Assembly (NCBI GenBank): GCA_014382445.1
Contig: JACNJS010000040.1
Location: 24,555-80,811, forward strand
DNA from: Bacteroidota bacterium
GTDB lineage: Bacteria > Bacteroidota > Bacteroidia > Bacteroidales > F082
Direction of reading: 5' to 3'
DNA length: 56,257 bases
Made by a program: the position numbers and the translations under genes
The notes under the pieces: generated by a model
What the model saw: only the letters and a program-made list of their open reading frames with translations
The model's database searches: none
What the model was told of the DNA's origin: nothing
Shown here: piece by piece, positions 5,841 to 25,266 of the stretch
Position numbering within the stretch: position 1 is the first letter of the stretch
Layout: every line of letters begins with the position of its first letter

Positions 5841-5901
5841 TAGTTAGTGTAAACAGTTTGTAAAGGTAAGAGTTCTATAGTTTGTTTCTGTATATTCCTG
5901 A

Positions 5902-5961
5902 TTACTTTTTCAACTCTTCCATGTCCTGCTTACGACGTTGGGTGATATTCTCAATTTCCAT
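5902..5961 (-). CDS. Possible 19-residue ORF between importer genes
   Basis: A 19-codon frame starting with MEIENITQRRKQ begins one base after the stop of the binding-protein gene (TAA T ATG), inside the importer operon. It is charged and hydrophilic. The tight spacing looks like translational coupling, but a frame this short also arises easily by chance. I recognise no family. Confidence 0.2.
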   Translation of the reverse strand: MEIENITQRRKQDMEELKK

Positions 5962-5962
5962 A

Positions 5963-7129: not shown

Positions 7130-7150
7130 TAAATAATTTGTTTAGGCTTG

Positions 7151-7183
7151 CAAAAATAGTTAATCCTGACTGCCGATAGGCAA
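7151..7183 (-). promoter_or_regulatory. Promoter for the metal-chelate importer operon
   Basis: The minus strand carries a -7 box TATTTTTG (7151-7158) and, 22 nt upstream, a TTG (7181-7183). The TTG lies within a diverged copy of the dispersed palindromic repeat, so the repeat may supply the -33 element. The box is 22 nt from the ATG. Confidence 0.5.
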
Positions 7184-7232
7184 GTTGTCAAGCTTTATTA
7201 GCAGTTCTATTTATACAAATCAATCAATTTAT

Positions 7233-7240
7233 TAATTTTG
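7233..7240 (+). promoter_or_regulatory. Promoter -7 box for the C26 lipoprotein gene
   Basis: TAATTTTG matches the Bacteroidota -7 consensus TAnnTTTG and lies 16 nt upstream of the ATG at 7257. No clear -33 TTG was seen. The short leader suggests that a slightly later ATG (7266) could also be used. Confidence 0.45.
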
Positions 7241-7256
7241 ACAACTTCATTTAAAA

Positions 7257-8066
7257 ATGCAACTCATGTTACAACGAATTATTTTCACACTTAGCTTTAT
7301 TATTGCAGGCACCATAATTTTTACGTCATGTGAAACAAAAAGTCCAACACAAATTAAGATTGCGATCTCTAAAGAAAAGTCGGACAAAAGCACTACAAAG
7401 TATTCTGATTGGTTATTAAGACACGACGATGAAATAGTTTACTACAATCTTTACCCTTTGGGAATTGATTCTGCAATGAAATTATTAAAAACGTGTAACG
7501 GACTATTACTTACTGGTGGTGAAGATGTTTTCCCTGGTACGTATGGCAAGATTGACGATACCGCCCGATGTGGCGAATTTGACAGATATCGTGACAGCCT
7601 TGAGTTTACTTTAATTGATTTGGCACTTGAAAATAAGATTCCTGTTTTCGGAGTTTGCAGGGGTGAGCAGATACTAAATTTAAGTATGGGAGGTACATTA
7701 TACATTGACCTACCAACCGATTTTAACACTACCGTTGCTCACAGACATAATCTTATGAGTAAGGCAAATCACTTTGTTAGGATAGTACCTAATACCACAT
7801 TATCTGAAATTTGTGAAAACACAAAACAAGATGATGTTGTCAGCAATCATCATCAGGGAATTGAAATATTGGGAACCGGTCTTTTTGTGTCAGCATATTC
7901 AGCTGATAACATGGCTGAAGCAATTGAGTGGGCCGACAAAACAGATCATGGTTTTTTAATGGCTGTTCAATGGCATCCTGAAGCAATGGATACATTACAC
8001 CCGTTGTCGGCACCATTAGCTAAAAAGTTTCTCCTGGAAGCCGCAAATTTCAAACCTGTTAACTAA
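7257..8066 (+). CDS. C26-type glutamine amidotransferase-like lipoprotein
   Basis: A class I glutamine-amidotransferase-like hydrolase of the peptidase C26 / gamma-glutamyl-GABA hydrolase group. It shows GLLLTGGEDVFPGTYG, the nucleophile elbow VFGVCRGEQILN with Cys134, and the His/Glu pair QWHPE (His240, Glu242), so the triad is complete. Unlike cytoplasmic PuuD, it has a signal peptide with a lipobox-like TSCE (Cys25), which places it outside the cytoplasm, where it could split gamma-glutamyl peptides. It heads a plus-strand group with the SDR gene 33 nt downstream. Substrate unknown. Confidence 0.88.
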   Translation: MQLMLQRIIFTLSFIIAGTIIFTSCETKSPTQIKIAISKEKSDKSTTKYSDWLLRHDDEIVYYNLYPLGIDSAMKLLKTCNGLLLTGGEDVFPGTYGKIDDTARCGEFDRYRDSLEFTLIDLALENKIPVFGVCRGEQILNLSMGGTLYIDLPTDFNTTVAHRHNLMSKANHFVRIVPNTTLSEICENTKQDDVVSNHHQGIEILGTGLFVSAYSADNMAEAIEWADKTDHGFLMAVQWHPEAMDTLHPLSAPLAKKFLLEAANFKPVN

Positions 8067-8099
8067 AATTCAATTGCCCGCTGTTTTTTATGAATTATC

Positions 8100-9041
8100 A
8101 TGGAATGGAAAACCAACATACCACCAACTATTCTAATAACCGGAAGTACTGGGTTCGTTTGCAGATATTTGGTTACTAAAATTCTGTTAAATTCTAACTT
8201 CAATATTGTTCTTACCTACAGAGTTAAAAAAGGGAACTACAATAAAAATAACAGATTATCTTTTGAGAAAGCTGATTTACTAAAACCACAATCATTTGAA
8301 GGCATTTTTTCAAAGTACAATCCAAAATATGTTGTTCATCTTGCAGCAATGGCACGTGTTTCGGATGGTGAAAATTACCCTGTGGAAGTATTAAAAACAA
8401 ACTATATTGCTACCATAACTTTATCAGAATTATCGATAAAATATAAGGTTGAGTCAATGGTTTTCACTTCCTCAAATCTTGCTCAGGATGCTGTTTCTGT
8501 TGTCGGAATATGCAAACTACTAGTTGAACAGTATTTTCAGAAATTAAACTCACAAACTACAAAGTTCATTAGTTTAAGGATGCCTAATGTTATTGACAGC
8601 AACGGAGCTGTTACATTAATTTTCAAAAAACAAATTGAAAATGATAATCCAATCACAATAACTCACCCTGATATGAGCCGAATGTTCATTACCGGTGAGC
8701 GCGCAGCTGATTTTCTGTACTTTCTTGTCAAACATGGGGCAAACAAAGGTGTTTACGTATCCTATGAAAAACCAGTTAAAATAACCGACCTTGCTGAAAA
8801 TATGATTAAAGAATCGGGTAAGCATATAAAAATTGATTTTATAGGTAAGAAGCGCGGAGAAAAACTTACGGAGAAAAGTTTCACTTTAAATGAGGTTATC
8901 ACAACGGATATTTCCGGACTCGGTATGATAAAAGAATACAAATACGAACTCAACTATTTAAAAGCTGCAATGGAGATACTTAACGATAAAGAAGATATCC
9001 TATCAGATAAAGACATTCAAAATTCATTTAAAAAATTATGA
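8100..9041 (+). CDS. CapD-like sugar-nucleotide SDR
   Basis: An NAD(P)-binding extended SDR most like the CapD/FlaA1 group of UDP-GlcNAc 4,6-dehydratases/epimerases. THPDMSRMFIT (188-198) and RGEKLTEKSF match that group's THPDMTRYF and GEKL motifs. The dinucleotide motif reads GSTGFVC, so the third glycine is Cys21. The catalytic segment reads VVGICK (Lys139) with Val135 where other SDRs have Tyr and CapD proteins usually have Met. Activity may therefore be altered. The soluble length of 313 residues lacks the membrane part of long CapD proteins. Its stop overlaps the next start by 4 nt (ATGA), so it is co-translated with the exported protein at 9038. Confidence 0.8.
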   Translation: MEWKTNIPPTILITGSTGFVCRYLVTKILLNSNFNIVLTYRVKKGNYNKNNRLSFEKADLLKPQSFEGIFSKYNPKYVVHLAAMARVSDGENYPVEVLKTNYIATITLSELSIKYKVESMVFTSSNLAQDAVSVVGICKLLVEQYFQKLNSQTTKFISLRMPNVIDSNGAVTLIFKKQIENDNPITITHPDMSRMFITGERAADFLYFLVKHGANKGVYVSYEKPVKITDLAENMIKESGKHIKIDFIGKKRGEKLTEKSFTLNEVITTDISGLGMIKEYKYELNYLKAAMEILNDKEDILSDKDIQNSFKKL

Positions 9042-10309
9042 TTAAAAAAACCATATTTATATTATTAATTCTTATTATCGGCATAATACCAATATCCAAG
9101 TCGGCATGGTTATTAATCCCCATGGATGAAAGCCAAAAAAACCACTTAAAAGCTTACGGTGTAGCATATTGGGCACTTACTAAAGGAGCTGAAATTGAAT
9201 GGCTTCTAAATTACAGAGGTGGCAGTTATTTGATGAAGTACCACCAGATATTCGAGGATGAATGTGTTATTAGGGATGTTACCTCACAAGTTATCACAGA
9301 TGTTCAAGCATCTTCAATCAAAAATCAAATATTACAGCCTGATGTAAACATGGATATTATTGAACTGCAAAAAGCACCAAGGATTGCGGTTTATTCTCCT
9401 AAAAACAATCAGCCATGGGATGATGCTGTAACTCTTGCTCTAACATATGCCGAAATACCATATGATGTTGTTTACGACCATGAGGTTATGAGCGGTATGT
9501 TGCCCACATTCGACTGGCTACATCTCCACCATGAAGATTTTACCGGACAATACGGAAAGTTTTGGGCCAACTATCGAAATTATCCCTGGTATAAAGAAGA
9601 TGTTGCGGCAAATGAGAAAATTGCCACTGAACTTGGTTTTGACAAAGTATCTGATCTAAAACTAGCGGTCGCAAAAAAGATACGTGATTTTGTACTGGGT
9701 GGTGGCTATTTGTTTGCAATGTGTTCGGCAACCGATAGTTATGATGTTGCCCTTGCTGCCGAAAATGTTGACATTTGCGATATTATGTTCGATGGAGATC
9801 CGATGGATGCCGATGCTCAGGAAAGTCTCGATTACGACAACTGCATGGTTTTTAAAGATTTCACCATAGTTAATAATCCTGTTAAGTACGAGATTTCAAA
9901 TATTGATGTTACCGAAACGAGGCCAAAAAGCATCCGCGAAAGTAACGATTATTTTGTGCTTTTTGAATTTTCGGCCAAATGGGACCACATACCCACAATA
10001 CTTTGTCAAAACCATGAGCGATTAATAAAAGGTTTTATGGGTCAGACTACTGCATTCAACAAAGACCTTATTCAATCGAATGCTGTAATTATGGGCGAAA
10101 ATAAGGCAGCAAATGAAGCGCGATACATTCACGGTGAATTTGGAAAGGGTTTCTGGACATTCTATGGCGGTCACGACCCCGAAGACTACCAGCACCGAAT
10201 TGGTGACCCTCAAACGGATCTTAATCTCTACCCTAACTCTCCAGGTTATAGATTGATACTTAACAATGTTCTGTTTCCGGCGGCAAAAAAGAAAAAAAGG
10301 AAAACTTAA
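9038..10309 (+). CDS. Exported protein, often mislabelled asparagine synthetase B
   Basis: A 423-residue protein with an N-terminal signal peptide. As I recall, the opening SAWLLIPMDESQKNHLKAYG belongs to a family conserved in Bacteroidota whose members are often annotated as asparagine synthetase B. I see no N-terminal Cys amidotransferase and no ATP-pyrophosphatase SGGxDS loop, so that name is not supported. The middle (about 110-240: RIAVYSPKNNQPWDDAV to GGGYLFAMCSATDSYDVA) looks like a flavodoxin-like or amidotransferase-like fold; Cys229 sits at a nucleophile-like turn. The tail is very basic (KKKKRKT). It overlaps the CapD-like gene by 4 nt. Function unknown, probably at the cell envelope. 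Confidence 0.75.
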   Translation: MIKKTIFILLILIIGIIPISKSAWLLIPMDESQKNHLKAYGVAYWALTKGAEIEWLLNYRGGSYLMKYHQIFEDECVIRDVTSQVITDVQASSIKNQILQPDVNMDIIELQKAPRIAVYSPKNNQPWDDAVTLALTYAEIPYDVVYDHEVMSGMLPTFDWLHLHHEDFTGQYGKFWANYRNYPWYKEDVAANEKIATELGFDKVSDLKLAVAKKIRDFVLGGGYLFAMCSATDSYDVALAAENVDICDIMFDGDPMDADAQESLDYDNCMVFKDFTIVNNPVKYEISNIDVTETRPKSIRESNDYFVLFEFSAKWDHIPTILCQNHERLIKGFMGQTTAFNKDLIQSNAVIMGENKAANEARYIHGEFGKGFWTFYGGHDPEDYQHRIGDPQTDLNLYPNSPGYRLILNNVLFPAAKKKKRKT

Positions 10310-10475
10310 GAAGCTCCGTGTCGATTATTTAATACCGATATTGATATTATTTTAAGTACTGTAATCAAAATACTTCATCGATATTTATTACCAGTTAATA
10401 ATTCTTCAAACCTAAAATATCACATTATTTTCAAATATTATTCACATTGATAGCAAAGTTAATTTGCAACCATTC

Positions 10476-10506
10476 TTGACATTTATTAAAAATTAGTTTA
10501 TTTTTG
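10476..10506 (+). promoter_or_regulatory. Promoter for zinc-ribbon gene (and perhaps the FNR-like gene)
   Basis: TTG (10476-10478), 20 nt, then TATTTTTG (10499-10506): a good match to the Bacteroidota TTTG-N19-23-TAnnTTTG promoter. It leaves a leader of about 40 nt before the ATG at 10555. The rest of the 245-nt gap from 10310 is AT-rich and shows no other clear signal. Confidence 0.65.
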
Positions 10507-10554
10507 AAATATAATAGTTCTTAATGTATTATTTAGACACTAAAACTTTGTAGT

Positions 10555-10962
10555 ATGACCAAAAAAGTTTCATTACACATAAAATGTCCTAAATGTGGCG
10601 AAAGCTTGATGGATCCTGAAACATTGATACTTGATTATCCGAGTATTAAATTTAACATCGTAACTTCGAATGACAGAGGAACTCTACGACTTTGTTCTAT
10701 TTATGGATGCTATAGCCATACAAGTGATATAGATCTAAAAGATGGCGAAATCGTAAATTTCATATGCCCAAAGTGCAACAAGCATCTAAAAAGCAATGAT
10801 GAATGTGATGCTCCCAACTGTAATGCACCTATGGTACCATTAAACCTTAAGTTGGGTGGTAAAGTTTTCATTTGTTCGAGAAAAGGATGTGCAAAACATT
10901 TTATAGCGTTTGAGGACCTGGCAACTGAAGTTAGAAAATTTTACGACGAATACGGGTTTTAA
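10555..10962 (+). CDS. Cysteine-rich multi-zinc-ribbon protein
   Basis: A 135-residue cytoplasmic protein without a recognised family. Ten cysteines form five pairs: C11-x2-C14, C47-x4-C52, C71-x2-C74, C84-x4-C89 and C107-x4-C112. The segment CPKCGES to CSIYGC is echoed by CPKCNKH to CSRKGC, suggesting two related zinc ribbons plus an extra Cys pair. Zinc is the likely ligand, but iron-sulphur cannot be excluded. It has a strong promoter of its own and lies 57 nt before the FNR-like regulator, so the two may be co-transcribed and functionally linked to redox control. Role inferred from position only. Confidence 0.75.
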   Translation: MTKKVSLHIKCPKCGESLMDPETLILDYPSIKFNIVTSNDRGTLRLCSIYGCYSHTSDIDLKDGEIVNFICPKCNKHLKSNDECDAPNCNAPMVPLNLKLGGKVFICSRKGCAKHFIAFEDLATEVRKFYDEYGF

Positions 10963-11019
10963 AATTTTTATTAATTTTATAAAAATATTTCTCGTTAATT
11001 TGATAACTACGTATTAACT

Positions 11020-11721
11020 ATGTTTAAGAACCTGGAATGTACAACCTGCCTTATCAGGCCCCAAACATGCTTTAACAACATAAGTGAGACAGATTTAAAA
11101 ACATTAAATCAAAGCAAACTTACCACGCTGTACAAAAAAGGTCAGGTTGTTTTTCATGAAGGCAGAGTACCAACTGGTATATACTGCTTACAAAGCGGAA
11201 AAATAAAAGTTTCAAAAATTGGCATTGATGGAAAAGAGCAAATCGTGCGCTTTGCTGTACCAGGTAGTTTACTCGGAATAAGGGCCCTGGTTTCAGGGCG
11301 TGAATACAGAGCATCCGCATCCACTCTGGAAGATTCAATTGTGTGTTTTATCGATAAAAAAACTTTTTTTGGAATAATAACAACCTATCCTGAAATATCA
11401 CAGTGCATACTTTTAAGCTTGAGCGATTTGCTTGAAGAAGCTGAAAAACGCATGACTTCAATGGCTCAAAAGCCGGTACGAGAAAGGGTTGCCGAAACAC
11501 TTTTGTTACTAAACAAAATATATAAAACAGAAAATTGCCCCGTAGAAAGAGCAACAATTAGCATATCACGCGAAGATTTGGCAAATATTGTTGGAACTGC
11601 TACTGAAACTGTTATCAGAATATTATCTTTATTCAAAGAAGAGAACCTGATCTCAATCGTTGGAAGAAAGATCGTACTGACTAATATAGATGCTCTTAAA
11701 CAAGTTGCCCGATTCGACTAA
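11020..11721 (+). CDS. FNR-like Crp family regulator with cluster cysteines
   Basis: A 233-residue Crp/Fnr transcription factor: N-terminal cyclic-nucleotide-like beta roll (GQVVFHEGRVPTGIYCLQSGKI), dimer helix (about 125-150), C-terminal winged helix with SREDLANIVGTATETVIRIL. The N-terminus has C7-x2-C10-x6-C17, and Cys109 (DSIVCFID) falls where E. coli FNR has its fourth ligand; the Cys17-Cys109 spacing (92) is close to the FNR spacing (93). This suggests an oxygen-sensing [4Fe-4S] cluster. The recognition helix reads ETVIR in place of FNR's ETISR. The gene lies directly before the hydrogenase operon, which has two FNR-like palindromes upstream. That it controls this operon is inference. 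Confidence 0.9.
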   Translation: MFKNLECTTCLIRPQTCFNNISETDLKTLNQSKLTTLYKKGQVVFHEGRVPTGIYCLQSGKIKVSKIGIDGKEQIVRFAVPGSLLGIRALVSGREYRASASTLEDSIVCFIDKKTFFGIITTYPEISQCILLSLSDLLEEAEKRMTSMAQKPVRERVAETLLLLNKIYKTENCPVERATISISREDLANIVGTATETVIRILSLFKEENLISIVGRKIVLTNIDALKQVARFD

Positions 11722-11795
11722 ATATTATTTAATATTTTGTATTACAAGCCCGCACCCGAATCCTAAACCCCTTAAATTCAGTTTATAATTAAGAT

Positions 11796-11815
11796 AATAT
11801 GATAATTGTCATATT
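11796..11815. promoter_or_regulatory. FNR/CRP-like operator, distal site
   Basis: AATATGATAATTGTCATATT is a 20-bp palindrome with a single mismatched pair. Its core ATGAT-AATT-GTCAT has the 5-4-5 layout of FNR boxes (TTGAT-N4-ATCAA). It lies between the FNR-like gene and the hydrogenase operon, 45 bp centre to centre from a second such site. Confidence 0.55.
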
Positions 11816-11843
11816 CAAAAGTGAATAAAAATCATTTTTCTCT

Positions 11844-11857
11844 ATGATAATAATCAT
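11844..11857. promoter_or_regulatory. FNR/CRP-like operator, proximal site
   Basis: ATGAT-AATA-ATCAT: perfect 5-bp arms around a 4-bp spacer, the FNR-box geometry. If the weak -7 box at 11880-11887 is used, the centre would lie near -41, the position of a class II activator site. That placement depends on an unverified transcription start. Confidence 0.55.
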
Positions 11858-11861
11858 TTCA

Positions 11862-11887
11862 TTGGTGTTTCCCTTCCATTATTATTG
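11862..11887 (+). promoter_or_regulatory. Weak candidate promoter of the hydrogenase operon
   Basis: TTG (11862-11864) followed 15 nt later by TATTATTG (11880-11887), one mismatch from TAnnTTTG. The short spacer and the mismatch suggest a promoter that needs an activator. It lies just downstream of the proximal FNR-like site. Confidence 0.3.
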
Positions 11888-11925
11888 TAACCGTTTTATT
11901 ACGTTTATTAAAAACTTATCCGGAT

Positions 11926-13713
11926 ATGAAAAAAATACCAGTAACAGGAGTTTATTTTCATTATTATACTAATGGCCACGCTGAGAGCATAAATTTTTTA
12001 GAAACAGAAAACTATATCAAAAAAATTCCAGGTGTTATTATACTTGGAAACTCCAATGAACTTCCTCCAATCGACAAGCAATTATTTATTAAAAAAATTC
12101 AGGAATTACATATTGAGAGGTTAGTTATTGCCGGCTATTCTCCCGGTATGGTGAAAACCTTTTTCACTTCAGCAATGCTGGAAGCAGGACAGGATGCCGA
12201 AAAAGTTCTGATTGCCGGCTTTAATGAATATGGTGCTATCAAAAAATCCGATACTGAATTAGCTAAAATAATATTACATTTTACTATTGCCGGCTTATCA
12301 TTAGATGATATTTCTACTTATTCTAAAAAACCGGTTAACGAAAATACACTGGTTATAGGAGGTGGCATTGCCGGAATACAGGCTTCGATAGAAATTGCCA
12401 ACAGCAAACATAAAGTTTACTTACTTGAACAAACAGGTACAATTGGCGGACACATGGCTATGTTCGATAAAACTTTCCCTACGCTTGACTGCGCTGCCTG
12501 TATACTCACTCCAAAAATGGTTGAAGTTGGCCAGCATCCTTTTATAGAGCTAATGACATATTGCGAGGTAATTGGTGTAACAGGTGAACACGGAGATTTT
12601 AAAGTTAAAGTACTTAAAAAGGCCAGGCGGGTTGACCTTGCCGATTGTATTGGATGTGGCATTTGCTCTGAAAAATGTCCGGCAAAAACACCAAGTGAAT
12701 TCGATGCCGGTACTACACTACGAAAGGCAATTTATATCCCTTTTCCGCAGGCCGTTCCAAATAAATATTTAATTGATGCCGAACATTGCATTTATGTTGA
12801 AAATGGTAAATGCGGAGTTTGTGTGAAGGTTTGTCCTGCCGATGCAGTTATACTCGACCAGCTTGATGAAGAAGTTGAAATTAATGTTGGAAATATTGTG
12901 CTTGCAACAGGTTTTAGTACGTTTGATGCACGACGAGCAGAAAATTTTGGGTATGGAAAACTTCCAAACGTACTTACATCACTTGAGTTTGAAAGACTGG
13001 TAAATGCTTCCGGACCTACCGAGGGCAATATCACCTTTAGAACAATAGATAAAAAGGGAAATCCAATCTTTACAAATGATAGCAAAAGTCCTCAGTCGGT
13101 TGCACTTATACATTGCATTGGAAGTCGTGATTTAACGTACAACCAGTATTGTTCAAAGGTTTGCTGTATGTATTCGCTTAAGCTGGCTCATTTAGTTAAA
13201 GAAAAATTACCTGATGCTGAGGTATATGAATACTATATCGATATGCGTGCTTATGGAAAAGGATATGAGGAGTTTTACGAAAGAATAAAGGGAGAAGGAG
13301 TTCACATAATTAGAGGCAGAACGGCAAAAATTGAACAGACAAATGATAAGTTACTTCTACGAAGCGAAGATATCGAAAATAACCGATTAATTGAGCAACT
13401 GGTTGATATGGCAATACTTTCTGTTGGTATTGAACCACGTGCTGATTCAAATTCACTAGCCGAAATGCTTGAAATAGTTACTGACAATTACGGCTGGTAT
13501 ATCGAGGAAAACAGCATCCTAAATACTACCAATACCAACAGGCCGGGAATTACACTCGCCGGAGTATGCCAGGGACCAAAAGATATTCCTGATACCGTAG
13601 TACATGCATCAGCAGCAGCTGCAAAAGTTATTCAGAATATTATCCTGCAAAAAACAAAAAAAGCAATTGATAAAGTTATGCTTTCAGAAATTGAAACTAC
13701 CTTAAAAGATTAA
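11926..13713 (+). CDS. HdrA/QmoA-like FAD iron-sulphur subunit (copy 1)
   Basis: Flavoprotein of the heterodisulfide reductase A / QmoA group, 595 residues. Order: HdrA N-terminal fold (1-130), FAD motif GGGIAG (145-150), FPTLDCAACILTPKM (Cys189, Cys192), inserted two-cluster ferredoxin (C241-C244-C247-C251 and C288-C296-C299-C303), HCIGSR (Cys397) and YCSKVCCM (409-414). The N-terminal domain has lost all its cluster cysteines: the usual CxCG is HYYT and ACSPR is GYSPG. The C-terminal ferredoxin of full HdrA is also missing. Copy 2 (14933) keeps exactly those parts. It is the first gene of the hydrogenase operon, 23 nt before the membrane subunit. It likely passes electrons between the hydrogenase, the membrane subunit and possibly ferredoxin. 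Confidence 0.9.
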   Translation: MKKIPVTGVYFHYYTNGHAESINFLETENYIKKIPGVIILGNSNELPPIDKQLFIKKIQELHIERLVIAGYSPGMVKTFFTSAMLEAGQDAEKVLIAGFNEYGAIKKSDTELAKIILHFTIAGLSLDDISTYSKKPVNENTLVIGGGIAGIQASIEIANSKHKVYLLEQTGTIGGHMAMFDKTFPTLDCAACILTPKMVEVGQHPFIELMTYCEVIGVTGEHGDFKVKVLKKARRVDLADCIGCGICSEKCPAKTPSEFDAGTTLRKAIYIPFPQAVPNKYLIDAEHCIYVENGKCGVCVKVCPADAVILDQLDEEVEINVGNIVLATGFSTFDARRAENFGYGKLPNVLTSLEFERLVNASGPTEGNITFRTIDKKGNPIFTNDSKSPQSVALIHCIGSRDLTYNQYCSKVCCMYSLKLAHLVKEKLPDAEVYEYYIDMRAYGKGYEEFYERIKGEGVHIIRGRTAKIEQTNDKLLLRSEDIENNRLIEQLVDMAILSVGIEPRADSNSLAEMLEIVTDNYGWYIEENSILNTTNTNRPGITLAGVCQGPKDIPDTVVHASAAAAKVIQNIILQKTKKAIDKVMLSEIETTLKD

Positions 13714-13736
13714 AACTCACATAATCAATAAGAGCA

Positions 13737-14921
13737 ATGAGTTACCGAGTAAATTCTGAATTTAAAAGCGACCTCAAGAAATTTGGCATTGCCGAACAGT
13801 GGAATGAATGTTTCCATTGTGGAAATTGTACAGCAGTATGCCCCTTAACCGAAAACGGATTTCTTTTTCCACGCCAGGGCATTCGCGTTATGCAAATGGG
13901 ATTGAAAGAAAAACTGGCCACATATGTTGATCCGTGGCTATGTTATTATTGCGGGGAATGTTCCGAAACATGCCCAAGGGAAGCAAACCCCGCGGAATTG
14001 ATGATGACACTACGAAGATACCTCACTTCGGTTTATGACTGGACGGGATTATCAAAAAAAATCTATACATCAAAGTGGTGGGAGTTTGGATCCATAATTA
14101 TAATTGCTCTGCTAATTATAGTTGGATTCCTCATATATCTTCCACTAAAATCAGGTGCTGATGCGATGGTTAACCAATCGGGGAGTGTTATGATAAACAG
14201 CCTTGTTGAAGGTATAAGCGCAGGCCAGTTTGTTAGAATCATTGAAATAGGCGACTGGACAATGGCAATTATTGTTGCAGCCTTACTAATCTCAAATATC
14301 CTGAATATGTTCTATAAAGTAATACTATCTGATAATGCAGTTAAAGTCCCGTTTGGTACATATTTTACCGAATTCTGGAGATTGATCTATAATTTCGCAA
14401 CACAGGCAAAATTCTCAAAATGCGACGATCGTAATTATTGGGTAGGTCATTTATTGCTCATGACGGGCTATTCAATTATGTTTGCTTTGGTGGTAATTGC
14501 CCTTCCCCTGTTTCAAATTGAGGAAATTGTACCATGGTATAACTGGCAGCGATTGCTGGGATATTATGCAACTTTCGGAATTTTATTTTTCCTGATCCAG
14601 GTAACAATCGGGCGAATCAAAAAGCAAGATACAAAGCTAAAATTTTCGCATCCAAGCGACTGGCTATTTATTATAATGCTTGCCCTAACAACCATTACGG
14701 GTATTCTTGTTCACATATTCAGATTGAACGGAATGGTTGAGGCAACTTATTATCTTTACATTGCACACCTTGCTGTTCTGGTTCCGATGATAGTAATTGA
14801 AGTACCATTTTCAAAATGGTCGCACCTCGCTTACCGGCCATTTGCCGTTTATTTTTCGAGACTAAAAAAAGCAGCTGTTAAAAAAATTGAATACCAAAGG
14901 GAGCTTGCTCCTGCTATTTAA
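13737..14921 (+). CDS. QmoC-like membrane subunit (HdrC-HdrE fusion)
   Basis: A 394-residue fusion. The N-terminal HdrC-like domain has two [4Fe-4S] motifs, C25-x2-C28-x2-C31-x3-CP and C69-x2-C72-x2-C75-x3-CP. The C-terminal membrane domain has about six hydrophobic segments starting near residue 118 and resembles the cytochrome b part of HdrE/NarI, with histidines (such as WVGHLL, VHIF, IAHLA) able to bind heme b. QmoC of sulfate reducers has the same layout and exchanges electrons with menaquinone. No HdrB (CCG-domain) protein is encoded nearby, so a disulfide substrate is unlikely. Placed between the two HdrA copies (23 and 11 nt spacing), it would anchor the complex to the membrane and the quinone pool. 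Confidence 0.9.
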   Translation: MSYRVNSEFKSDLKKFGIAEQWNECFHCGNCTAVCPLTENGFLFPRQGIRVMQMGLKEKLATYVDPWLCYYCGECSETCPREANPAELMMTLRRYLTSVYDWTGLSKKIYTSKWWEFGSIIIIALLIIVGFLIYLPLKSGADAMVNQSGSVMINSLVEGISAGQFVRIIEIGDWTMAIIVAALLISNILNMFYKVILSDNAVKVPFGTYFTEFWRLIYNFATQAKFSKCDDRNYWVGHLLLMTGYSIMFALVVIALPLFQIEEIVPWYNWQRLLGYYATFGILFFLIQVTIGRIKKQDTKLKFSHPSDWLFIIMLALTTITGILVHIFRLNGMVEATYYLYIAHLAVLVPMIVIEVPFSKWSHLAYRPFAVYFSRLKKAAVKKIEYQRELAPAI

Positions 14922-14932
14922 AATTTAGTGAT

Positions 14933-16687
14933 ATGAAAGAGCCAAAAATTGGGGTTTACATATGTTGGTGCGGGACTAACATCTCACATATGGTTGATGT
15001 TAAAGCAATTACTGAAGAAATCGGTGATATGCCAAATATCAAGGTTTCAAGAAATTATAAATATATGTGTTCCGACCCCGGACAGGATCTAATAATTAGT
15101 GATATAAAAAAGCATAAGTTAAACCGAATAGTGGTTGCTGCATGCTCGCCGCGGATTCATGAACTCACATTTAGAAAAGCCATTGAAAATGCGGGATTGA
15201 ACCCTTATTTGTTTGAAATGGCCAATATACGTGAGCAGGTGTCGTGGGTGCATACCGATATAGAAGCTGCTACCGAAAAAGCAAAATCACTTGTTATTGC
15301 CGCTATAAGCAAAGTTACACACCATGAGGAGCTGGAAAGAAGAACTGTCGATATAAATCCCGCTACTTTAATAATTGGAGGAGGTATTACCGGAATGACT
15401 GCTGCACTTGATATTGCTGAATCTGGTTTTAAAGTTTATCTTATCGAAAGAGATAACAAACTGGGTGGTGTTGTTTCAAAAGTGGATCTTACTTTTCCAT
15501 ATATGTCGAGTGCCCAGCAACTAATAAAGTCGTTGATAAACAAGGTATCTAATAATAAAAACATAGAAGTATTTTTTAACACCAAAATAAAAGAAATTAA
15601 TGGTTATGTAGGCAATTTTGAAACTAAACTTAAATTACAAAAAAAAGCAAGGGAACTAAAATTCGGAAACATGATACTTGCAACAGGACTAAAACCTACT
15701 GATCCGGAGAGCATACATGAAATTGGTTACGGCAGGCTTCCCGATGTGGTTACTGCTTTGGAATTTGAACAAATGCTGATTAAAGGAAACATAAAAACCA
15801 AAGCCGGTAAAGAACCTAATAATATACTCATAGTGCATTGTGTAGGGAGCAGGAACGAAAAATACAATCCTTATTGTAGCCGTACCTGTTGCATGACAGC
15901 ATTAAAATATTCAAACCAGATTAGATCGGCTTTACCCAAAACCAGCATTTATCATGCCTACTCTGATATGAGAGCTTTTGGAAAAGGATGTGAAGAATTC
16001 TATTCACAAACAGGCAGAAAAAATGCGGTGTTTTTAATGTATGATCAGAAAAATGATATTCCTACCCTAAGAAGAGCAGGTAAAAACGACAGGTGCAATA
16101 TAATTGCCCATATGTATGAAAAATTATCGGGTGAAGATATTGAAATACCGGCCGACATTGTTATATTAATGATTTCGATGGAAGCACATGAAAATGTCAA
16201 ACAGGTGGCTCATGCAGCTGGTGTCAGTATTTGCAGCAATGGCTTTTTTATGGAGAAGCACCCTAAACTCGATCCTATAGCAACAACAACTGATGGCGTT
16301 TATATTGCTGGCACTTGCCAGTCGCCAAAAGACATTCCTGATTCGGTATCGCAGGCGCGTGCTGCCGCTGCTCGTATTCTTACTTCAATTTCGGTTGGAA
16401 AAGTTGAAATTGAATTAACAACTGCCGTGGTTAACGAAGATATATGCGGCGCTTGCCATACCTGTATTAATGTTTGTCCTTATTCAGCTATCAGTTTTGA
16501 TGAAGAAAAGAAAGTATCGGTTGTAAATGAAGTTATTTGCAAAGGATGCGGTACTTGTAGCTCTGCCTGCCCAACCGGCGCCATCAGTGCACGGCATTTT
16601 ACCGATAAACAAATATTATCACAAATTGAAGGGCTGCTGGCCGTTTCAAATAAACTATCAGAAAAATTAGAAATGGAGGAAGTGTAG
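14933..16687 (+). CDS. HdrA/QmoB-like FAD iron-sulphur subunit (copy 2)
   Basis: Second HdrA-like flavoprotein, 584 residues. The N-terminal cluster domain is intact (GVYICWCGTN with Cys11 and Cys13, MCSD Cys46, AACSPR Cys71). Then come FAD motif GGGITG (149-154), HCVGSR, YCSRTCCM, and a C-terminal ferredoxin with C505-C508-C511-C515 and C536-C539-C542-C546. It lacks the PTLDCxxC segment (here FPYMSSAQQ) and the inserted ferredoxin, both of which are present in copy 1. In the known MvhADG-HdrABC structure, the C-terminal part of HdrA receives electrons from MvhD. Since mvhD starts one base after this gene, copy 2 is the likely docking partner of the hydrogenase. Resembles QmoB in sulfate reducers. 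Confidence 0.9.
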   Translation: MKEPKIGVYICWCGTNISHMVDVKAITEEIGDMPNIKVSRNYKYMCSDPGQDLIISDIKKHKLNRIVVAACSPRIHELTFRKAIENAGLNPYLFEMANIREQVSWVHTDIEAATEKAKSLVIAAISKVTHHEELERRTVDINPATLIIGGGITGMTAALDIAESGFKVYLIERDNKLGGVVSKVDLTFPYMSSAQQLIKSLINKVSNNKNIEVFFNTKIKEINGYVGNFETKLKLQKKARELKFGNMILATGLKPTDPESIHEIGYGRLPDVVTALEFEQMLIKGNIKTKAGKEPNNILIVHCVGSRNEKYNPYCSRTCCMTALKYSNQIRSALPKTSIYHAYSDMRAFGKGCEEFYSQTGRKNAVFLMYDQKNDIPTLRRAGKNDRCNIIAHMYEKLSGEDIEIPADIVILMISMEAHENVKQVAHAAGVSICSNGFFMEKHPKLDPIATTTDGVYIAGTCQSPKDIPDSVSQARAAAARILTSISVGKVEIELTTAVVNEDICGACHTCINVCPYSAISFDEEKKVSVVNEVICKGCGTCSSACPTGAISARHFTDKQILSQIEGLLAVSNKLSEKLEMEEV

Positions 16688-16688
16688 T

Positions 16689-17111
16689 ATGGAATTTCAA
16701 CCAACAATTGTATCATTCTTGTGTAACTGGTGTTCCTATTCTGGTGCCGATCTTGCCGGAACATCGCGCATGAAATATGCGCCGAACATACGTATTATAA
16801 GAGTTATGTGCTCAGGACGTGTAGATCCTACTTTTGTACTGAAAGCCTTCAGCGAAGGAGCTGATGGTGTTCTTATCTGCGGTTGTCATCCGGGTGATTG
16901 TCATTATCATGAGGGCAATTATAAGTGCTTAAGAAGATTTCTATTACTTCAAAAATATATCAGCCAAATGGGTATCAACCCCAACAGGCTGAGGCTCGAA
17001 TGGATAAGTGCCAGCGAAGGGAAACAGTTTGCTCAACTGGTTGATGAAATGACCGAAGTATTGATACAACTAGGCCCTAACAAATTTAAAGAAATAACTC
17101 AACCCGCATAA
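16689..17111 (+). CDS. mvhD: MvhD-type [2Fe-2S] adaptor of hydrogenase and HdrA
   Basis: A 140-residue MvhD/FlpD protein that carries electrons from the hydrogenase to HdrA. Cysteines at 12, 15 (LCNWC), 41 (MCSGR), 64, 66 and 71 (CGCHPGDCHY) match the family pattern, and the length is typical of stand-alone MvhD. In sulfate reducers this domain is fused to QmoB; here it is a separate gene one base after the HdrA copy 2 stop and 12 nt before the hydrogenase small subunit. The position supports the electron path hydrogenase, MvhD, HdrA copy 2. Confidence 0.94.
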   Translation: MEFQPTIVSFLCNWCSYSGADLAGTSRMKYAPNIRIIRVMCSGRVDPTFVLKAFSEGADGVLICGCHPGDCHYHEGNYKCLRRFLLLQKYISQMGINPNRLRLEWISASEGKQFAQLVDEMTEVLIQLGPNKFKEITQPA

Positions 17112-17123
17112 AAATTGTTTGTT

Positions 17124-18110
17124 ATGAATAGTTCAAATAATAATAATAAACCAAAACTGAAAATGGCAGTTTACTGGGGTTCGGCTTGTGGAGGATGCTG
17201 TGTATCTATACTTGATGTTCATGAAGCTTTGTTTGATGTAATTGCAAATGCTGATCTCGTTTTCTGGCCAATTGCTCTTGATACTAAGTACAAAGATGTT
17301 GAAGCGATGCCAAACGGGTTTATTGATATCACTCTTTTTAACGGAGCTATCCGCAACAGCGAAAATGAGCATATGGCATTGCTGTTGCGCGAAAAATCAA
17401 AATTGCTAATTGCCTACGGATCGTGCGCACATCTTGGCGGAATACCCGGACTCGGTAATTTCCATAACAGAAAAGAGATATTTGAACGGGTTTATGAGAC
17501 CAGCGAATCAACAGTTAATCCTGATGGGATTATGCCTCAAACCAATTACGCTGCACTTGAAGGAAATTTAAACCTTCCTGAATTTTATGATACTGTAAAA
17601 ACGCTCGACCAGGTTGTATGTGTTGATTACTACATGCCTGGCTGTCCTCCACAAACCGAACGACTCCTTGAAGTATTTATGGCAGTGGTAAACGGTTCTG
17701 AATTACCTCAAAAAAAATCAGTAATCGGCGCATGGGATAAAACCCAGTGCGATGAGTGCGACCGGGTAAAAACAGATAATAAGCTTGTAAAAAAATTTAA
17801 CCGGCCGTTTGAAATCGACGATGATCTCACAACCTGTTTTTTGGAGCAGGGTGTTATTTGCCTCGGACCAGCTACCAGAGGCGGGTGTGGCTACCGTTGC
17901 ATTAAAGGCAATGCCCCATGCCGCGGATGTTACGGCCCGACTCCCGATATAACCGACCCTGGTGCTAAAATGATGTCGGCCATTGGAACATTAATCGACG
18001 CCAACAAACCCGAAGAAATTGCCGAAATAGTTGATCAGATTGTTGACCCTGCAGGAACTTTTTACCGATACAGCTTACCTGCTTCAATATTAAGAAGAAA
18101 ATTGATATGA
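17124..18110 (+). CDS. mvhG: [NiFe] hydrogenase small subunit, Mvh/group 3 type
   Basis: Cytoplasmic small subunit with three iron-sulphur clusters: proximal-cluster motif WGSACGGCCVSILD near the N-terminus, AYGSCAHLGGIPG, MPGCPP, and a Cys-rich C-terminal half (CDEC, RGGCGYRCIKG, CRGCYGP). It has no Tat signal, which fits a soluble group 3 enzyme. I use the ATG at 17124 (MNSSNN); the frame also allows a TTG three codons earlier. At 328 residues it is of usual size. Its stop overlaps the large-subunit start by 4 nt (ATGA), ensuring balanced synthesis. Confidence 0.95.
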   Translation: MNSSNNNNKPKLKMAVYWGSACGGCCVSILDVHEALFDVIANADLVFWPIALDTKYKDVEAMPNGFIDITLFNGAIRNSENEHMALLLREKSKLLIAYGSCAHLGGIPGLGNFHNRKEIFERVYETSESTVNPDGIMPQTNYAALEGNLNLPEFYDTVKTLDQVVCVDYYMPGCPPQTERLLEVFMAVVNGSELPQKKSVIGAWDKTQCDECDRVKTDNKLVKKFNRPFEIDDDLTTCFLEQGVICLGPATRGGCGYRCIKGNAPCRGCYGPTPDITDPGAKMMSAIGTLIDANKPEEIAEIVDQIVDPAGTFYRYSLPASILRRKLI

Positions 18111-19570
18111 AAAGAATAACTATCGACCCAATTACCAGGCTTGAAGGCCATGGCAAAATAGAAATATTTACCAACAGAAACGGTGAAGTTGAAAATGTGT
18201 ATTTTCAGGTTCCCGAGTTAAGGGGTTTTGAAAAATTTTGCGAAGGCAGACCCGTTGAAGAATTAGCGCAAATTGTAACAAAAATATGTGGAGTGTGCCC
18301 TGGATGTCATCATATGGCATCAGGAAAAGCAGCCGACGCAGTATATGGTGTTGATCCTCCTGTAACAGCAAAAAAATTACGTGAGTTGTTTTATATGGCA
18401 CATTTCGTACACAGTCATATTGCGCACTTTTATGTATTAGCAGCTCCCGATTTTGTAGTAGGTCCAACAGCCCCTCCGGAAAAAAGAAATATACTGGGTG
18501 TTATTGAAAAAGTAGGTAAAGACATTGGTTTAGAAGTAATTAAACAAAGGCGAAGGGCACAGGAAATCCAGGCATTACTTGGCGGACATCAAACCCAGGT
18601 AGTAATGAATATTCCGGGCGGGGTTCGTAGAGGTTTATCAGAAGATGAAAGAGATGATGTGCTGGCAAAAACAAAAGGATTTATCGAGTTTGCACGCTTC
18701 ACTCTTAAAATTTTTGATGATTTTGTACTTGGAAATGAACAATATACCGACATAATCCTCAATGGTCCGTATAACCTGAAATTACACTCAATGGGACTTG
18801 TTGACGAAAACAACCTTGTTAATTTTTACGATGGAAAAGTAAGGGTTGTAGATACTGAAGGAAATGAGCATTGTAAATATTCCGCGCCCGATTATCTCGA
18901 TTATATTGAAGAAAGAGTTGAGCCATGGAGTTACCTTAAATTTCCATATCTGAAAAAGATAGGATGGAAAGGGTTTATTGAAGGTCAGGATTCAGGAGTT
19001 TATCATGCCACTCCCCTTTCGCGTTTAAATGCAGCAGAAGGTATGGCCACACCATTAGCCAACAAACACTATAAAAGAATGTTTGACACCCTGGGTGGAA
19101 AACCCGTTCACGCTACTCTTGCAATGCATTGGGCACGACTTGTAGAATTGCTTTATGCAGCCGAAAGATGCTTTGAACTTGCCAGCGACCCTGATATTAC
19201 CGGAGATGAATTAAGAACACCGGTTGGCAAACCCGTTGGTGAAGGAGTGGGAATAGTTGAAGCCCAGCGTGGAACGTTAACCCACCATTACTGGACTGAT
19301 GAAAAAGGTATCGTAACAAAAGCCAACATTATTGTAGGTACAACAAACAATAATGCTGCGATTTGTATGTCGTTGAAAAAAGTTGCACAAACACTAATTA
19401 AAAAAGGTGAAAAAGTGGATGATGGTATCCTCAATATGATTGAAATGGCTTTTAGGGCATACGATCCATGCTTTTCATGCGCAACCCACCATTTACCCGG
19501 AGAAATGCCATTGATTATTAAGATCAAAGACCCCGATGGTAATTTAATGCAGGAACTAAGACGCGACTAA
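18107..19570 (+). CDS. mvhA: [NiFe] hydrogenase large subunit, Mvh/group 3 type
   Basis: Catalytic subunit binding the NiFe(CN)2CO site. L1 motif ICGVCPGCHH provides Cys61 and Cys64; L2 motif DPCFSCATH provides Cys455 and Cys458. It opens with the family signature ITIDPITRLEGHGK. Maturation normally cleaves after the His of L2 (His461), leaving a 26-residue tail here (HLPGEMPL to the end), which is longer than the roughly 15 residues of many hydrogenases. The protease gene follows with no gap. The L2 form and the neighbours MvhG, MvhD and HdrA point to group 3c-like, probably H2-oxidising with electron transfer to HdrA. The hyp maturation genes are not in this window. Confidence 0.95.
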   Translation: MKRITIDPITRLEGHGKIEIFTNRNGEVENVYFQVPELRGFEKFCEGRPVEELAQIVTKICGVCPGCHHMASGKAADAVYGVDPPVTAKKLRELFYMAHFVHSHIAHFYVLAAPDFVVGPTAPPEKRNILGVIEKVGKDIGLEVIKQRRRAQEIQALLGGHQTQVVMNIPGGVRRGLSEDERDDVLAKTKGFIEFARFTLKIFDDFVLGNEQYTDIILNGPYNLKLHSMGLVDENNLVNFYDGKVRVVDTEGNEHCKYSAPDYLDYIEERVEPWSYLKFPYLKKIGWKGFIEGQDSGVYHATPLSRLNAAEGMATPLANKHYKRMFDTLGGKPVHATLAMHWARLVELLYAAERCFELASDPDITGDELRTPVGKPVGEGVGIVEAQRGTLTHHYWTDEKGIVTKANIIVGTTNNNAAICMSLKKVAQTLIKKGEKVDDGILNMIEMAFRAYDPCFSCATHHLPGEMPLIIKIKDPDGNLMQELRRD

Positions 19571-20035
19571 ATGAATAATACGCTTATTCTCGGATTTGGC
19601 AATCCTCTTTTGTCGGATGACGGAATAGGCACCCGTATTGTTAACGACCTGAAAACAAAAATGGATAATAATTTGTTTGAGTTTTCATCTGCTTATATTT
19701 GTGGGATAGATATTATTACCATCATTAAGGGATACAAAAATATGATTGTGGTAGATGGTTGTATGACACAAAATAGTACTCCAGGGGAACTCTCATTTTA
19801 TACGGTTGATAACTATTACGGAATGGCCCACCTGGATAATTACCACGACGTAAAGTTTAGAGACATAATTAAGTTAAGCAGGGATCTCAATCTTCATATC
19901 CCAGAAAACATTCATATAGTAGCCATTGAGATAAAAGAAGATATGGTTTTCAGCAAAGATTTGTCACCCTCTTTACAAAATTCATATCCAGAAATTTTAC
20001 AGAAAGTACTTGATTTCATAAATCAATTATCATAA
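19571..20035 (+). CDS. Hydrogenase maturation endopeptidase, HycI/HyaD family
   Basis: A 154-residue nickel-dependent protease that trims the C-terminus of the large subunit after the metal centre is inserted. It shows GFGNPLLSDDGIG (Ni-site Asp in DDG), IVVDGC at the second conserved Asp and the downstream HLDNYHDVK histidines. The ATG follows the large-subunit stop directly (TAA ATG), so it is the last gene of the operon. Its specific substrate is surely the neighbouring large subunit, whose DPCFSCATH-H site would be cut. Confidence 0.92.
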   Translation: MNNTLILGFGNPLLSDDGIGTRIVNDLKTKMDNNLFEFSSAYICGIDIITIIKGYKNMIVVDGCMTQNSTPGELSFYTVDNYYGMAHLDNYHDVKFRDIIKLSRDLNLHIPENIHIVAIEIKEDMVFSKDLSPSLQNSYPEILQKVLDFINQLS

Positions 20036-23559: not shown

Positions 23560-23607
23560 ATGCAACTCAAACAACAAATTTTTTGTCAGAATAAAAAATA
23601 TACACAA

Positions 23608-25266
23608 ATGAAACGAAACCTACTTCTTGTCATCCTTATTGGGATCATTGTTAACTCAACTGCTCAGATTGCACCTGATAAATATTATATACAGTTTACG
23701 GATAAAAACAATTCTCCATATTCCATCAACAATCCTCAGGAATTCTTAACACAGCGTGCCATTGATCGTCGAAATCAGCAAGGCATATCCATCAGTGAAA
23801 ACGATATACCTGTAAACGTATCTTATCTCCAAGGCGTTGCTGATATTGGTGTTGACTTGTTAAACCATACCCGCTGGCTAAATGGCGTAACAGTTTATAC
23901 TGAGGATTCTGCCCTTATTGAGCAAATTGAAGCCTTACCATATGTAAGCGGAGTTCTGAAATTTCATTATTCTGAAAATTTCATTAGCGATAAATTCAGG
24001 GAAATAAAAACTGATGCACCCAACTACAATAATAATTCCCGAAACAGCAATTCTTCAACCTCTTTAGACTATGGGTTGGCTTTCGGACAAATTGATCAAC
24101 TTAACGGCATTCCGTTGCATGATCATGGATTTCAGGGAGAGGGGATGGTTATTGCTGTACTGGATGCAGGGTTTACAGGCGTTCTTGTTCATCCTGTTTT
24201 TGAATACCTGTGGGAAAACGATAGAATATTGGGCACTAAAGATTTTGTTTATATGGGGGGCTCTGTTTACGATGGGCATGAACATGGTAAAATGGTACTT
24301 TCTTGCATGGGTGGCAACTTGCCTGGTGAAATGGTTGGTACAGCACCAGAAGCTGAATACTGGCTACTACGTTCGGAAGAAGGTCCGCATGAAAATATTA
24401 TTGAAGAATATAATTGGGTATCGGCAGCTGAATTTGCCGATAGTGTTGGTGCTGATGTTATTAACAGTTCTTTAAGTTACGCTACGTTTGATCTACCTGA
24501 ATGGGATTACACACCTGAAGATATGGATGGTAATACTGCAATAGCAACAATAGGAGCGGACATTGCTGCTTCAAAGGGTATACTTGTTTGTAATAGTGCA
24601 GGTAACTCCGGATCGTGGATAGGATCGCCGGGAGATGCTGATAGTGTTTTCACAGTTGGCGCTGTTGACCTTAACGATCAAAGAGCTTCATTCAGTTCTA
24701 TTGGTCCTACTGCCGACGGAAGAATTAAACCCACTGCCATGTCGTGTGGTGCAGGTGCAACAATAGCTGTAGGAAATGTTGGAATTTCGACAAATGGATA
24801 TGGAACTTCTTTTTCCTCCCCTATTATGGCGGGCATGTCGGCCTGTTTATGGCAATCGCACCCTGAGATGTCAGTAATGGAAGTTCAGGAAGCTATTAAA
24901 CAAAGTGGTTCATATGCTAACAACCCCGACAACTTTATGGGATGGGGAATACCAAATTTTGCAGGTGCCGACTCAATATTAACAGTAATTTCGCCTCCGT
25001 CGCACGATGATAAATTAATAAATGCAGGTCCAAGCCCTTTTCACAATCACTTAAGTGTTAGAGTAAACATCGATAGTGCAGAAAGCATTAGCGTTGAGCT
25101 TATTAACCTTGCCGGAAATGTTGTTATAAGAAAAAATTATAGTCTCACTAACCACAACAATAAGTTCGAACTAACTACGGAAGTGATTCCATTACCACAG
25201 GGAATTTACTTCCTTAAAGTAGTTACAATGCATAAAACTGACATCATAAAAGTTGTAAAAGGATAG
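23608..25266 (+). CDS. Secreted S8 subtilisin-like peptidase with T9SS tail
   Basis: Subtilase with all three catalytic residues: Asp186 in IAVLDAG, His226 in HEHGKMV and Ser401 in YGTSFSSP. CNSAGNSG supplies the oxyanion Asn. The N-terminal signal (MKRNLLLVILIGIIV) is followed by an inhibitor-like pro-region and the peptidase domain. The last 80 residues (GPSPFHNHL, VELINLAGNVV, LPQGIYFLKV, ending KVVKG) form a type A T9SS sorting domain, so it crosses the outer membrane by type IX secretion. The frame is open for 16 more codons, starting at 23560 right after the M1 stop, but the signal peptide fits the start at 23608 better. It has 552 residues. Confidence 0.93.
   Translation: MKRNLLLVILIGIIVNSTAQIAPDKYYIQFTDKNNSPYSINNPQEFLTQRAIDRRNQQGISISENDIPVNVSYLQGVADIGVDLLNHTRWLNGVTVYTEDSALIEQIEALPYVSGVLKFHYSENFISDKFREIKTDAPNYNNNSRNSNSSTSLDYGLAFGQIDQLNGIPLHDHGFQGEGMVIAVLDAGFTGVLVHPVFEYLWENDRILGTKDFVYMGGSVYDGHEHGKMVLSCMGGNLPGEMVGTAPEAEYWLLRSEEGPHENIIEEYNWVSAAEFADSVGADVINSSLSYATFDLPEWDYTPEDMDGNTAIATIGADIAASKGILVCNSAGNSGSWIGSPGDADSVFTVGAVDLNDQRASFSSIGPTADGRIKPTAMSCGAGATIAVGNVGISTNGYGTSFSSPIMAGMSACLWQSHPEMSVMEVQEAIKQSGSYANNPDNFMGWGIPNFAGADSILTVISPPSHDDKLINAGPSPFHNHLSVRVNIDSAESISVELINLAGNVVIRKNYSLTNHNNKFELTTEVIPLPQGIYFLKVVTMHKTDIIKVVKG

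Follow-up and report, generated by a model that had tools for sequence, protein, structure and literature searches.

A Bacteroidota operon joining an Mvh-type hydrogenase, two complementary HdrA proteins and a QmoC-like cytochrome b, a candidate for H2 bifurcation to menaquinone and ferredoxin

An Mvh-type hydrogenase operon without HdrB

Where might the electrons of an Mvh-type [NiFe]-hydrogenase go when its operon encodes two HdrA proteins and a QmoC-like membrane subunit, and no HdrB? This question is raised by a locus at positions 11926-20035 of a 56,257-nucleotide stretch of contig JACNJS010000040.1 from a Bacteroidota bacterium (GCA_014382445.1), the whole of which is hereafter called the window. 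An open reading frame (ORF) check placed seven genes on one strand (+), in the order HdrA1, QmoC-like, HdrA2, MvhD, MvhG, MvhA and maturation protease, with intergenic gaps of 23, 11, 1, 3, -4 and 0 bp (Table 1), which bears out the gene order and the tight spacing (-4 to 23 bp) described in the original prediction. Judging from the sequences, the products probably make up one membrane-anchored complex, in which H2 would be bifurcated to menaquinone and ferredoxin through a one-site HdrA heterodimer, with QmoC replacing HdrC-HdrB. To our knowledge, flavin-based bifurcation by HdrA has been proven for soluble acceptors only; if the proposal is true, quinone-linked bifurcation would join flavin-based bifurcation directly to the respiratory chain.

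The hydrogenase module resembles that of methanogens. MvhD matched PF02662 (1.2e-55) and, among solved chains, 5odc_D (4.8e-51) and 8rvu_F, the MvhD-related protein of Elp-Hdr (3.9e-52). The small subunit scored 229 bits against VhuG and the large subunit 381 bits against VhuA, below the respective NCBIfam cut-offs of 450 and 800. At the level of solved chains, the small subunit reached 230 bits with 5odc_E, 228 with 9sw2_E and 196 with 9sfi_I vs. 102 for the next one (7t2r_E), so that the three Mvh/F420-non-reducing chains stand apart, as is characteristic of the MvhG-type small subunit of [NiFe] group 3c. The large subunit reached 394 bits with 9sw2_F and 387 with 5odc_F, yet 7t2r_D is close at 368 bits in this best-match placement. 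It holds the ICGVCP and DPCFSC motifs, which we take to be the Ni-ligand motifs, and a C-terminal tail. The best matches thus support the Mvh-type hydrogenase originally proposed, and by best match the large subunit falls with the Mvh/Vhu enzymes. Group names such as 3c follow PMC5037454 and general usage.

Conservation of the gene order

Three arrangements were distinguished among the relatives: type I (HdrA1-QmoC-HdrA2-MvhD-G-A), type II (MvhD-G-A-HdrA1-QmoC-HdrA2) and the canonical type III (HdrC-HdrB-HdrA-MvhD-G-A). QmoC was found in 5 of the 295 genomes of the class (E <= 1e-20) and MvhA in 48 of the 247 genomes of the order (E <= 1e-100), 19 of them with at least 70% identity and the other 29 with about 40%. 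Flanks were examined in 17 of the 18 non-window genomes with at least 70% MvhA identity (G360 was left out), hence in 18 genomes with the window: 14 carry type I, two carry type III and two were assigned no type, while type II is additionally present in three of the 14 type I genomes. Type I loci are cut at contig ends in four of these 14 genomes, L057 and L058 showing only HdrA2-MvhD-G-A with the QmoC side past the contig end; type I is counted in 14 of the 247 genomes of the order, with QmoC in view in 12.

Further type I loci are L013, L014 (cut) and L021-L024 (L023 being cut and L022 apparently the same record as L055), and a further type II locus is L018. This brings the distinct type I loci to 19, window included: 12 hold all six genes, six are cut by contig ends and L056 is cut by the stretch taken. 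The seven cut loci agree with the order as far as it is visible, and with 12 whole loci sharing it, chance is ruled out as the cause of the arrangement. The genome search proposed originally had aimed at all seven genes; the protease gene comes next in nine of the 12 whole loci, and was not seen in L022, L065 and L066. A tandem of a type II and a type I operon on a single contig is found in L056 (G315; 4184-19998).

At the level of the phylum, QmoC is present in 18 of 395 genomes. Six of the 17 besides the window's own genome were inspected, and the hydrogenase adjoins QmoC in one of them (G755); the contigs of L099 and L100 end nearby. Beyond Bacteroidota, coverage consists of a scan with the QmoC protein, which reaches close relatives only and gave four loci, titled Bacteroidetes, Bacteroidales or Prolixibacteraceae, and of a plasmid search: plasmid carriage was considered, and QmoC had no match in the plasmid collection.

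As for HdrB, tblastn with two HdrB queries (E <= 1e-3) found none in the window and the 22 type I/II stretches, several of which are cut by contig ends; the matches, in 2 of 27 sources, are the two canonical loci. The absence of HdrB from the neighbourhood thus holds for type I and type II relatives, but the two type III relatives carry a 74-75% identical hydrogenase beside hdrB; their HdrA is full-length, and a membrane domain is absent. In the hydrogenase tree (28 rows, midpoint root, good support at 9 of the 25 inner branches), the canonical-locus hydrogenases group beside that of type I locus L066 (support 96/94), and a closely related hydrogenase has therefore been paired with either output module.

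Two HdrA proteins as complementary halves

HdrA models are the best NCBIfam matches of both HdrA1 (535 bits) and HdrA2 (556 bits), each below the cut-off of 1100. Residues 21-569 of HdrA1 align with 20-562 of the solved HdrA (5odc_A), a span that takes in the inserted ferredoxin domain and ends short of the C-terminal one; HdrA2 (pLDDT of the predicted structure, 76) aligns with both ends and skips the inserted domain. HdrA1 has an FAD domain, Cys189/Cys192 (Cys192 aligning with Cys197 of the solved HdrA), an inserted ferredoxin domain with eight cysteines and Cys397/409/413/414, and is devoid of the N-terminal cluster set and of the C-terminal ferredoxin domain. HdrA2 has an N-terminal cluster set (Cys11, 13, 46 and 71), an FAD domain with Cys303/315/319/320 and a C-terminal 2x[4Fe-4S] ferredoxin domain (eight cysteines), its FAD domain lacking Cys197 and the inserted ferredoxin.

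This division was followed in an alignment of 47 rows, five of them cut, which covered type I and type II HdrA1 and HdrA2, the split fusion of L101 and two canonical HdrA; each site was scored only on the rows that cover it, and the Qmo-like HdrA of L015/L016, the HdrA of G159 (L017, L109) and the HdrA pieces of L099-L105 were left out of the count. The N-terminal four-Cys set is complete in HdrA2 (21/21), HdrA1 having 0 or 1 of the four (17/17). Conversely, the Cys197 pair is present in HdrA1 (17/17) and in none of 22 HdrA2, and the inserted ferredoxin domain has its eight cysteines in HdrA1 (19/19), the domain being found in 0/22 HdrA2. The C-terminal ferredoxin domain is complete in all 23 HdrA2, with eight cysteines, and is found in none of 20 HdrA1. 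The Cys set that we take to ligate the FAD-domain cluster is retained in both (20/20 and 23/23). The canonical HdrA (L067, L068) carry all sets.

From these patterns, HdrA1 and HdrA2 are read as complementary halves of one canonical HdrA. In the solved complex, according to the accessible text of PMC9012536, one HdrA lends its Cys197 to complete the N-terminal cluster of its partner, and that cluster feeds the ferredoxin exit; tandem HdrA of ANME archaea with the same ligand pattern are read there as a heterodimer. The present pair shows that pattern, with the N-terminal cluster without Cys197 in one copy and the reverse in the other. Because the N-terminal set occurs only in HdrA2 and Cys197 only in HdrA1, one Cys197-completed cluster would be possible per HdrA1-HdrA2 pair. 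The distances of HdrA1 and HdrA2 also show the strongest correlation among the gene pairs (Mantel r 0.80; 1 of 2000 permutations; 12 loci).

A natural fusion of 1490 aa in G755 (L101) unites an HdrA1-like and an HdrA2-like half, both of which obey the same ligand split, and adjoins QmoC followed by MvhD-G-A. A glutamate-synthase/NfnB-like flavin domain (Fer4_20, Pyr_redox_2) is inserted in the first half of the fusion. The genes from QmoC to MvhA span L101:9682-18411, and H2, NAD(P)H and menaquinone are possibly joined in one complex there.

The QmoC-like membrane subunit

The membrane subunit matches qmoC best among the NCBIfam models, at 191.7 bits vs. a cut-off of 300 for the curated equivalog. 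It consists of an HdrC-like head of about 112 residues, whose eight cysteines are predicted to bind two [4Fe-4S] clusters, and of six predicted transmembrane helices. His238, 305, 326, 344 and 363 are conserved and are candidate ligands of two b hemes; the eight cysteines and four of the histidines are kept in 22/22 QmoC rows, the fifth histidine in 21/22. HdrC and NarI chains are among the best matches in a fold comparison; a Foldseek search of the PDB with the predicted QmoC structure had no match at E <= 0.001. The HdrC-like head and the NarI-like cytochrome b would therefore stand in for HdrC-HdrB, and not for HdrB alone: the original prediction was right in that HdrB is absent and a QmoC-like protein takes its place, but HdrC appears to be replaced as well.

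A QmoC-family membrane subunit with two HdrA-like subunits is also what the Qmo complex of sulfate reducers contains, and HdrA1-QmoC-HdrA2 might accordingly be a Qmo complex whose electrons go to a soluble reductase, in the way that Qmo supplies APS reductase, the hydrogenase serving as an additional donor. The QmoC clusters of the phylum in which no hydrogenase lies within the stretch examined (L015, L016, L102 and L103) speak for it. We hold it to be very improbable, as there is no reductase gene within the operon or between genes in the 12 whole loci, MvhD is separate and adjoins the hydrogenase, and the aprA (APS reductase) model had no match in the genome, a negative without a clear positive control since 14 control genomes matched only below cut-off.

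Proposed electron route and direction

In the proposed bifurcating complex, H2 would be oxidised by MvhAG and the electrons would pass via MvhD into a mobile arm, here made up of the N- and C-terminal cluster domains of HdrA2 only, which would serve the FAD of HdrA1. A mobile arm consisting of an MvhD-like subunit and of N- and C-terminal HdrA domains, and serving the FAD of the other HdrA, is the model put forward in PMC12350162 (accessible text). The low-potential electron would leave via the inserted ferredoxin domain of HdrA1, through the cluster formed by the N-terminal cysteines of HdrA2 and Cys192 of HdrA1, whereas the high-potential electron would run from the FAD-domain cluster of HdrA1 to the HdrC-like head of QmoC, and on to menaquinone through two b hemes. 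Compared with methanogens, whose HdrA dimer is symmetric and has two sites, the HdrA pair would thus be a heterodimer with one site; the complex would catalyse the net reaction 2 H2 + ferredoxin(ox) + menaquinone <-> ferredoxin(red) + menaquinol (+ 2 H+). As a natural single-site enzyme, the split HdrA could help to separate two electron routes that are blurred in the symmetric dimer.

Two observations sit less easily with this bifurcating complex. The QmoC distances show no correlation with those of the HdrA proteins or MvhA, which weighs against it, leaves the idea of a fully co-evolving operon only partly borne out and suggests a separate history for this subunit. Secondly, Cys353 and Cys434, in the FAD-domain region of HdrA2, occur in 19/19 type I rows and in none of eight type II, canonical or Qmo-like rows, a pair that the proposal leaves unexplained; Cys388 is found in 15 of 19 type I rows and in the four type II rows. 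An additional cluster or a redox disulfide is possible.

The proteins could also work as a plain H2:menaquinone oxidoreductase, in which HdrA1 and HdrA2 would do no more than pass electrons on to QmoC, while the exit for ferredoxin would be idle or structural. H2 can reduce menaquinone without ferredoxin, and in the accessible text of PMC10553843 and PMC3685469 confurcation by QmoABC, itself with two HdrA-like subunits, is only a proposal. Such a relay seems rather unlikely, given that the inserted domain of HdrA1 keeps its eight cysteines in 19/19 rows while other cluster sets of this protein were lost, and that counterparts of E356 and K409 of the solved HdrA, which presumably act near the flavin, are present in all 47 rows.

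Concerning the energetics of the bifurcating reaction, general background potentials of -420 to -500 mV for ferredoxin and -74 to -100 mV for menaquinone give -10 to -30 kJ per 2 H2 at 100 Pa, with a balance at 0.2-14 Pa H2, which is the syntrophic range. With this balance point, the reaction could go either way. Inside the cell, the same complex might mainly work in reverse and confurcate electrons from menaquinol and reduced ferredoxin to H2 while partners keep its level low. The break-even pressure fits, as does the fact that [FeFe]-hydrogenase had no match in the genome, the operon hydrogenase and a Hox-type one being the only hydrogenases found. Against it, no marker in the operon fixes the direction, and the Hox-type enzyme could release H2 from NADH; mainly reversed operation is thus possible and somewhat unlikely. 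In a broader and equally tentative version, the operon would represent a widespread bacterial enzyme tying the quinone pool to bifurcation, a reversible valve with H2 uptake above a few Pa and release below. As the hemes would span the membrane, the membrane potential could drive the reaction or be fed by it. If so, Bacteroidales would gain direct H2 production from menaquinol in syntrophy.

Host genome

The genome of the window (G000; 3.47 Mb, 96% complete) has menD and a B. subtilis-type fumarate reductase/succinate dehydrogenase flavoprotein, both above cut-off, as well as two Rnf/Nqr-type loci, so that menaquinone and an outlet for reduced ferredoxin are likely available. With menD present and aprA unmatched, the genome is consistent with the menaquinone link drawn originally. 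Its one other [NiFe] large subunit is Hox-type by its neighbours, assigned by eye. If true, the proposed reaction would explain how a genome with two [NiFe]-hydrogenases and no [FeFe]-hydrogenase found exchanges H2 with its menaquinone pool.

CCG (HdrB-like) domain matches lie at three places of this genome: C75 (L106), C73 and C51. An HdrB supplied to the operon from elsewhere was considered and set aside for the copy in L106, as this HdrB lies in a separate cluster with its own HdrA. There (C75:136000-154000), positions 8091-16930 hold genes for an HdrC-HdrB fusion (384 aa), a double HdrA fusion (1020 aa), MvhD, and NuoE-like and NuoF-like proteins, shortly preceded by an aldehyde:ferredoxin oxidoreductase gene. 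It looks like an NADH-linked bifurcating complex.

Comparison with known systems

The closest precedent is archaeal. Ca. Methanoglobus hypatiae has a highly transcribed Mvh-Qmo-Hdr cluster with MvhAGD, two HdrA and QmoC fused to HdrC, for which H2 bifurcation to menaquinone and ferredoxin was proposed (PMC10945360, accessible text, which cites Buessecker 2023 for the cluster and also names Ca. M. nevadensis). The likeness, HdrB being absent from both, is one of composition only, and the host differs, Ca. Methanoglobus being an archaeal hot-spring methanogen. Composition and hypothesis were thus already published for Archaeoglobi, and the present operon extends the proposal into Bacteroidota. 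The original statement that no characterised complex has this composition stands as far as purified enzymes are concerned, none having been found in the open-licence literature; it does not extend to the hypothesis itself. Nor was any earlier report of the operon in Bacteroidota found in that literature.

With the HdrABC-MvhAGD of methanogens (5odc, 9sw2-9sw6), the operon shares MvhA, MvhG and MvhD, present together, as well as homologous HdrA domains and an HdrC-like domain. It differs by a cytochrome b instead of an HdrB with CCG active-site domains, and by complementary HdrA1/HdrA2 instead of a homodimer of a single HdrA with all cluster domains. QmoABC of sulfate reducers and green sulfur bacteria likewise combines a QmoC-family membrane subunit with two HdrA-like flavoproteins, as opposed to which the operon has a separate MvhD, an N-terminal HdrA domain and the hydrogenase. 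Complementary N-terminal cluster and Cys197 are also described for the tandem or fused HdrA of ANME archaea and of Moorella MetFV-HdrABC, the partners of which, in the accessible text (PMC9012536), are HdrBC or HdrD together with other donors and not a hydrogenase and a cytochrome b. Ca. Methanomixophus has Mvh and HdrA without HdrB, as in the operon; HdrD was proposed as substitute, with no QmoC link in the accessible part of PMC7380581. Earlier, Mvh of A. sulfaticallidus had been suggested as a possible partner of QmoB (PMC3949148, accessible text), and bacterial group 3c hydrogenases with Hdr genes, or with HdrA and no HdrBC, are mentioned in the accessible parts of PMC5317091 and PMC4053972.

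Regulator, flanks and other loci

Table 1. Genes of the operon and features upstream of it in the window
Feature	Position	Strand	Remarks
Fnr/Crp-family regulator	11020-11721	+	PF00027 and HTH_Crp_2; best NCBIfam match Fnr, under cut-off
Two Fnr-like palindromes	11800-11856		Intergenic stretch, regulator to HdrA1
HdrA1	11926-13713	+	595 aa
QmoC-like membrane subunit	13737-14921	+	394 aa
HdrA2	14933-16687	+	584 aa
MvhD, [2Fe-2S] connector hydrogenase-HdrA	16689-17111	+	140 aa
MvhG-type [NiFe]-hydrogenase small subunit	17115-18110	+	331 aa; TTG start
MvhA-type [NiFe]-hydrogenase large subunit	18107-19570	+	487 aa; 4 bp overlap with small-subunit gene
Hydrogenase maturation protease (large-subunit tail cleavage)	19571-20035	+	154 aa; PF01750, TIGR00072 (1.9e-23) above cut-off

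The nearest gene upstream of HdrA1 encodes an Fnr/Crp-type protein, a probable anaerobic regulator of the operon. A homologue adjoins HdrA1 upstream in 10 of the 13 type I loci with that side visible, window included, and was not found beside it in L022, L060 and L066; the homologues have an N-terminal CxxC pair and one later Cys in common. Two Fnr-like palindromes precede HdrA1: TGATAATTGTCA, with one mismatch, starts 126 bases 5' of the ATG, and TGATAATAATCA, with perfect half-sites, 81 bases 5' of it. Perfect TGAT-N4-ATCA boxes number four in 14 upstream stretches (one of which is only 2 bases long) vs. 0.17 expected from shuffles, that of L062 falling within its own regulator gene; in four of the 13 usable stretches, no box was found even with one mismatch.

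Within the operon, the small-subunit gene has an in-frame ATG 9 bases inside its TTG start. No terminator was found 3' of the operon, and the nearest downstream gene, 308 bp past it, encodes an MFS transporter. On the upstream side, a 135-aa protein (10555-10962), zinc-ribbon-like by eye and matching no family above cut-off, has relatives at other loci. Those in L021, L057, L059 and L071 lie 3' of the protease gene, that in L062 (62% identity) precedes the regulator, and the one in L019 is some 5 kb away from the Hox-type hydrogenase; the protein may be hydrogenase-associated.

Another arrangement occurs in L017 with L109 (G159) and in L099 (G570), where QmoC is followed by an HdrA piece, then by a NuoF-like gene. 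In L017 the HdrA piece carries a fused NuoE-like domain, and further along this strand in G159 come a large HdrA, MvhD, MvhG and MvhA; beyond BLAST matches, these assignments were made by eye. An NADH-linked QmoC/HdrA complex is possible in these loci. Lastly, the translations of 52569-55844 and 23560-25266 in the window look, by eye, like secreted subtilisin-like proteases with C-terminal sorting-type domains.

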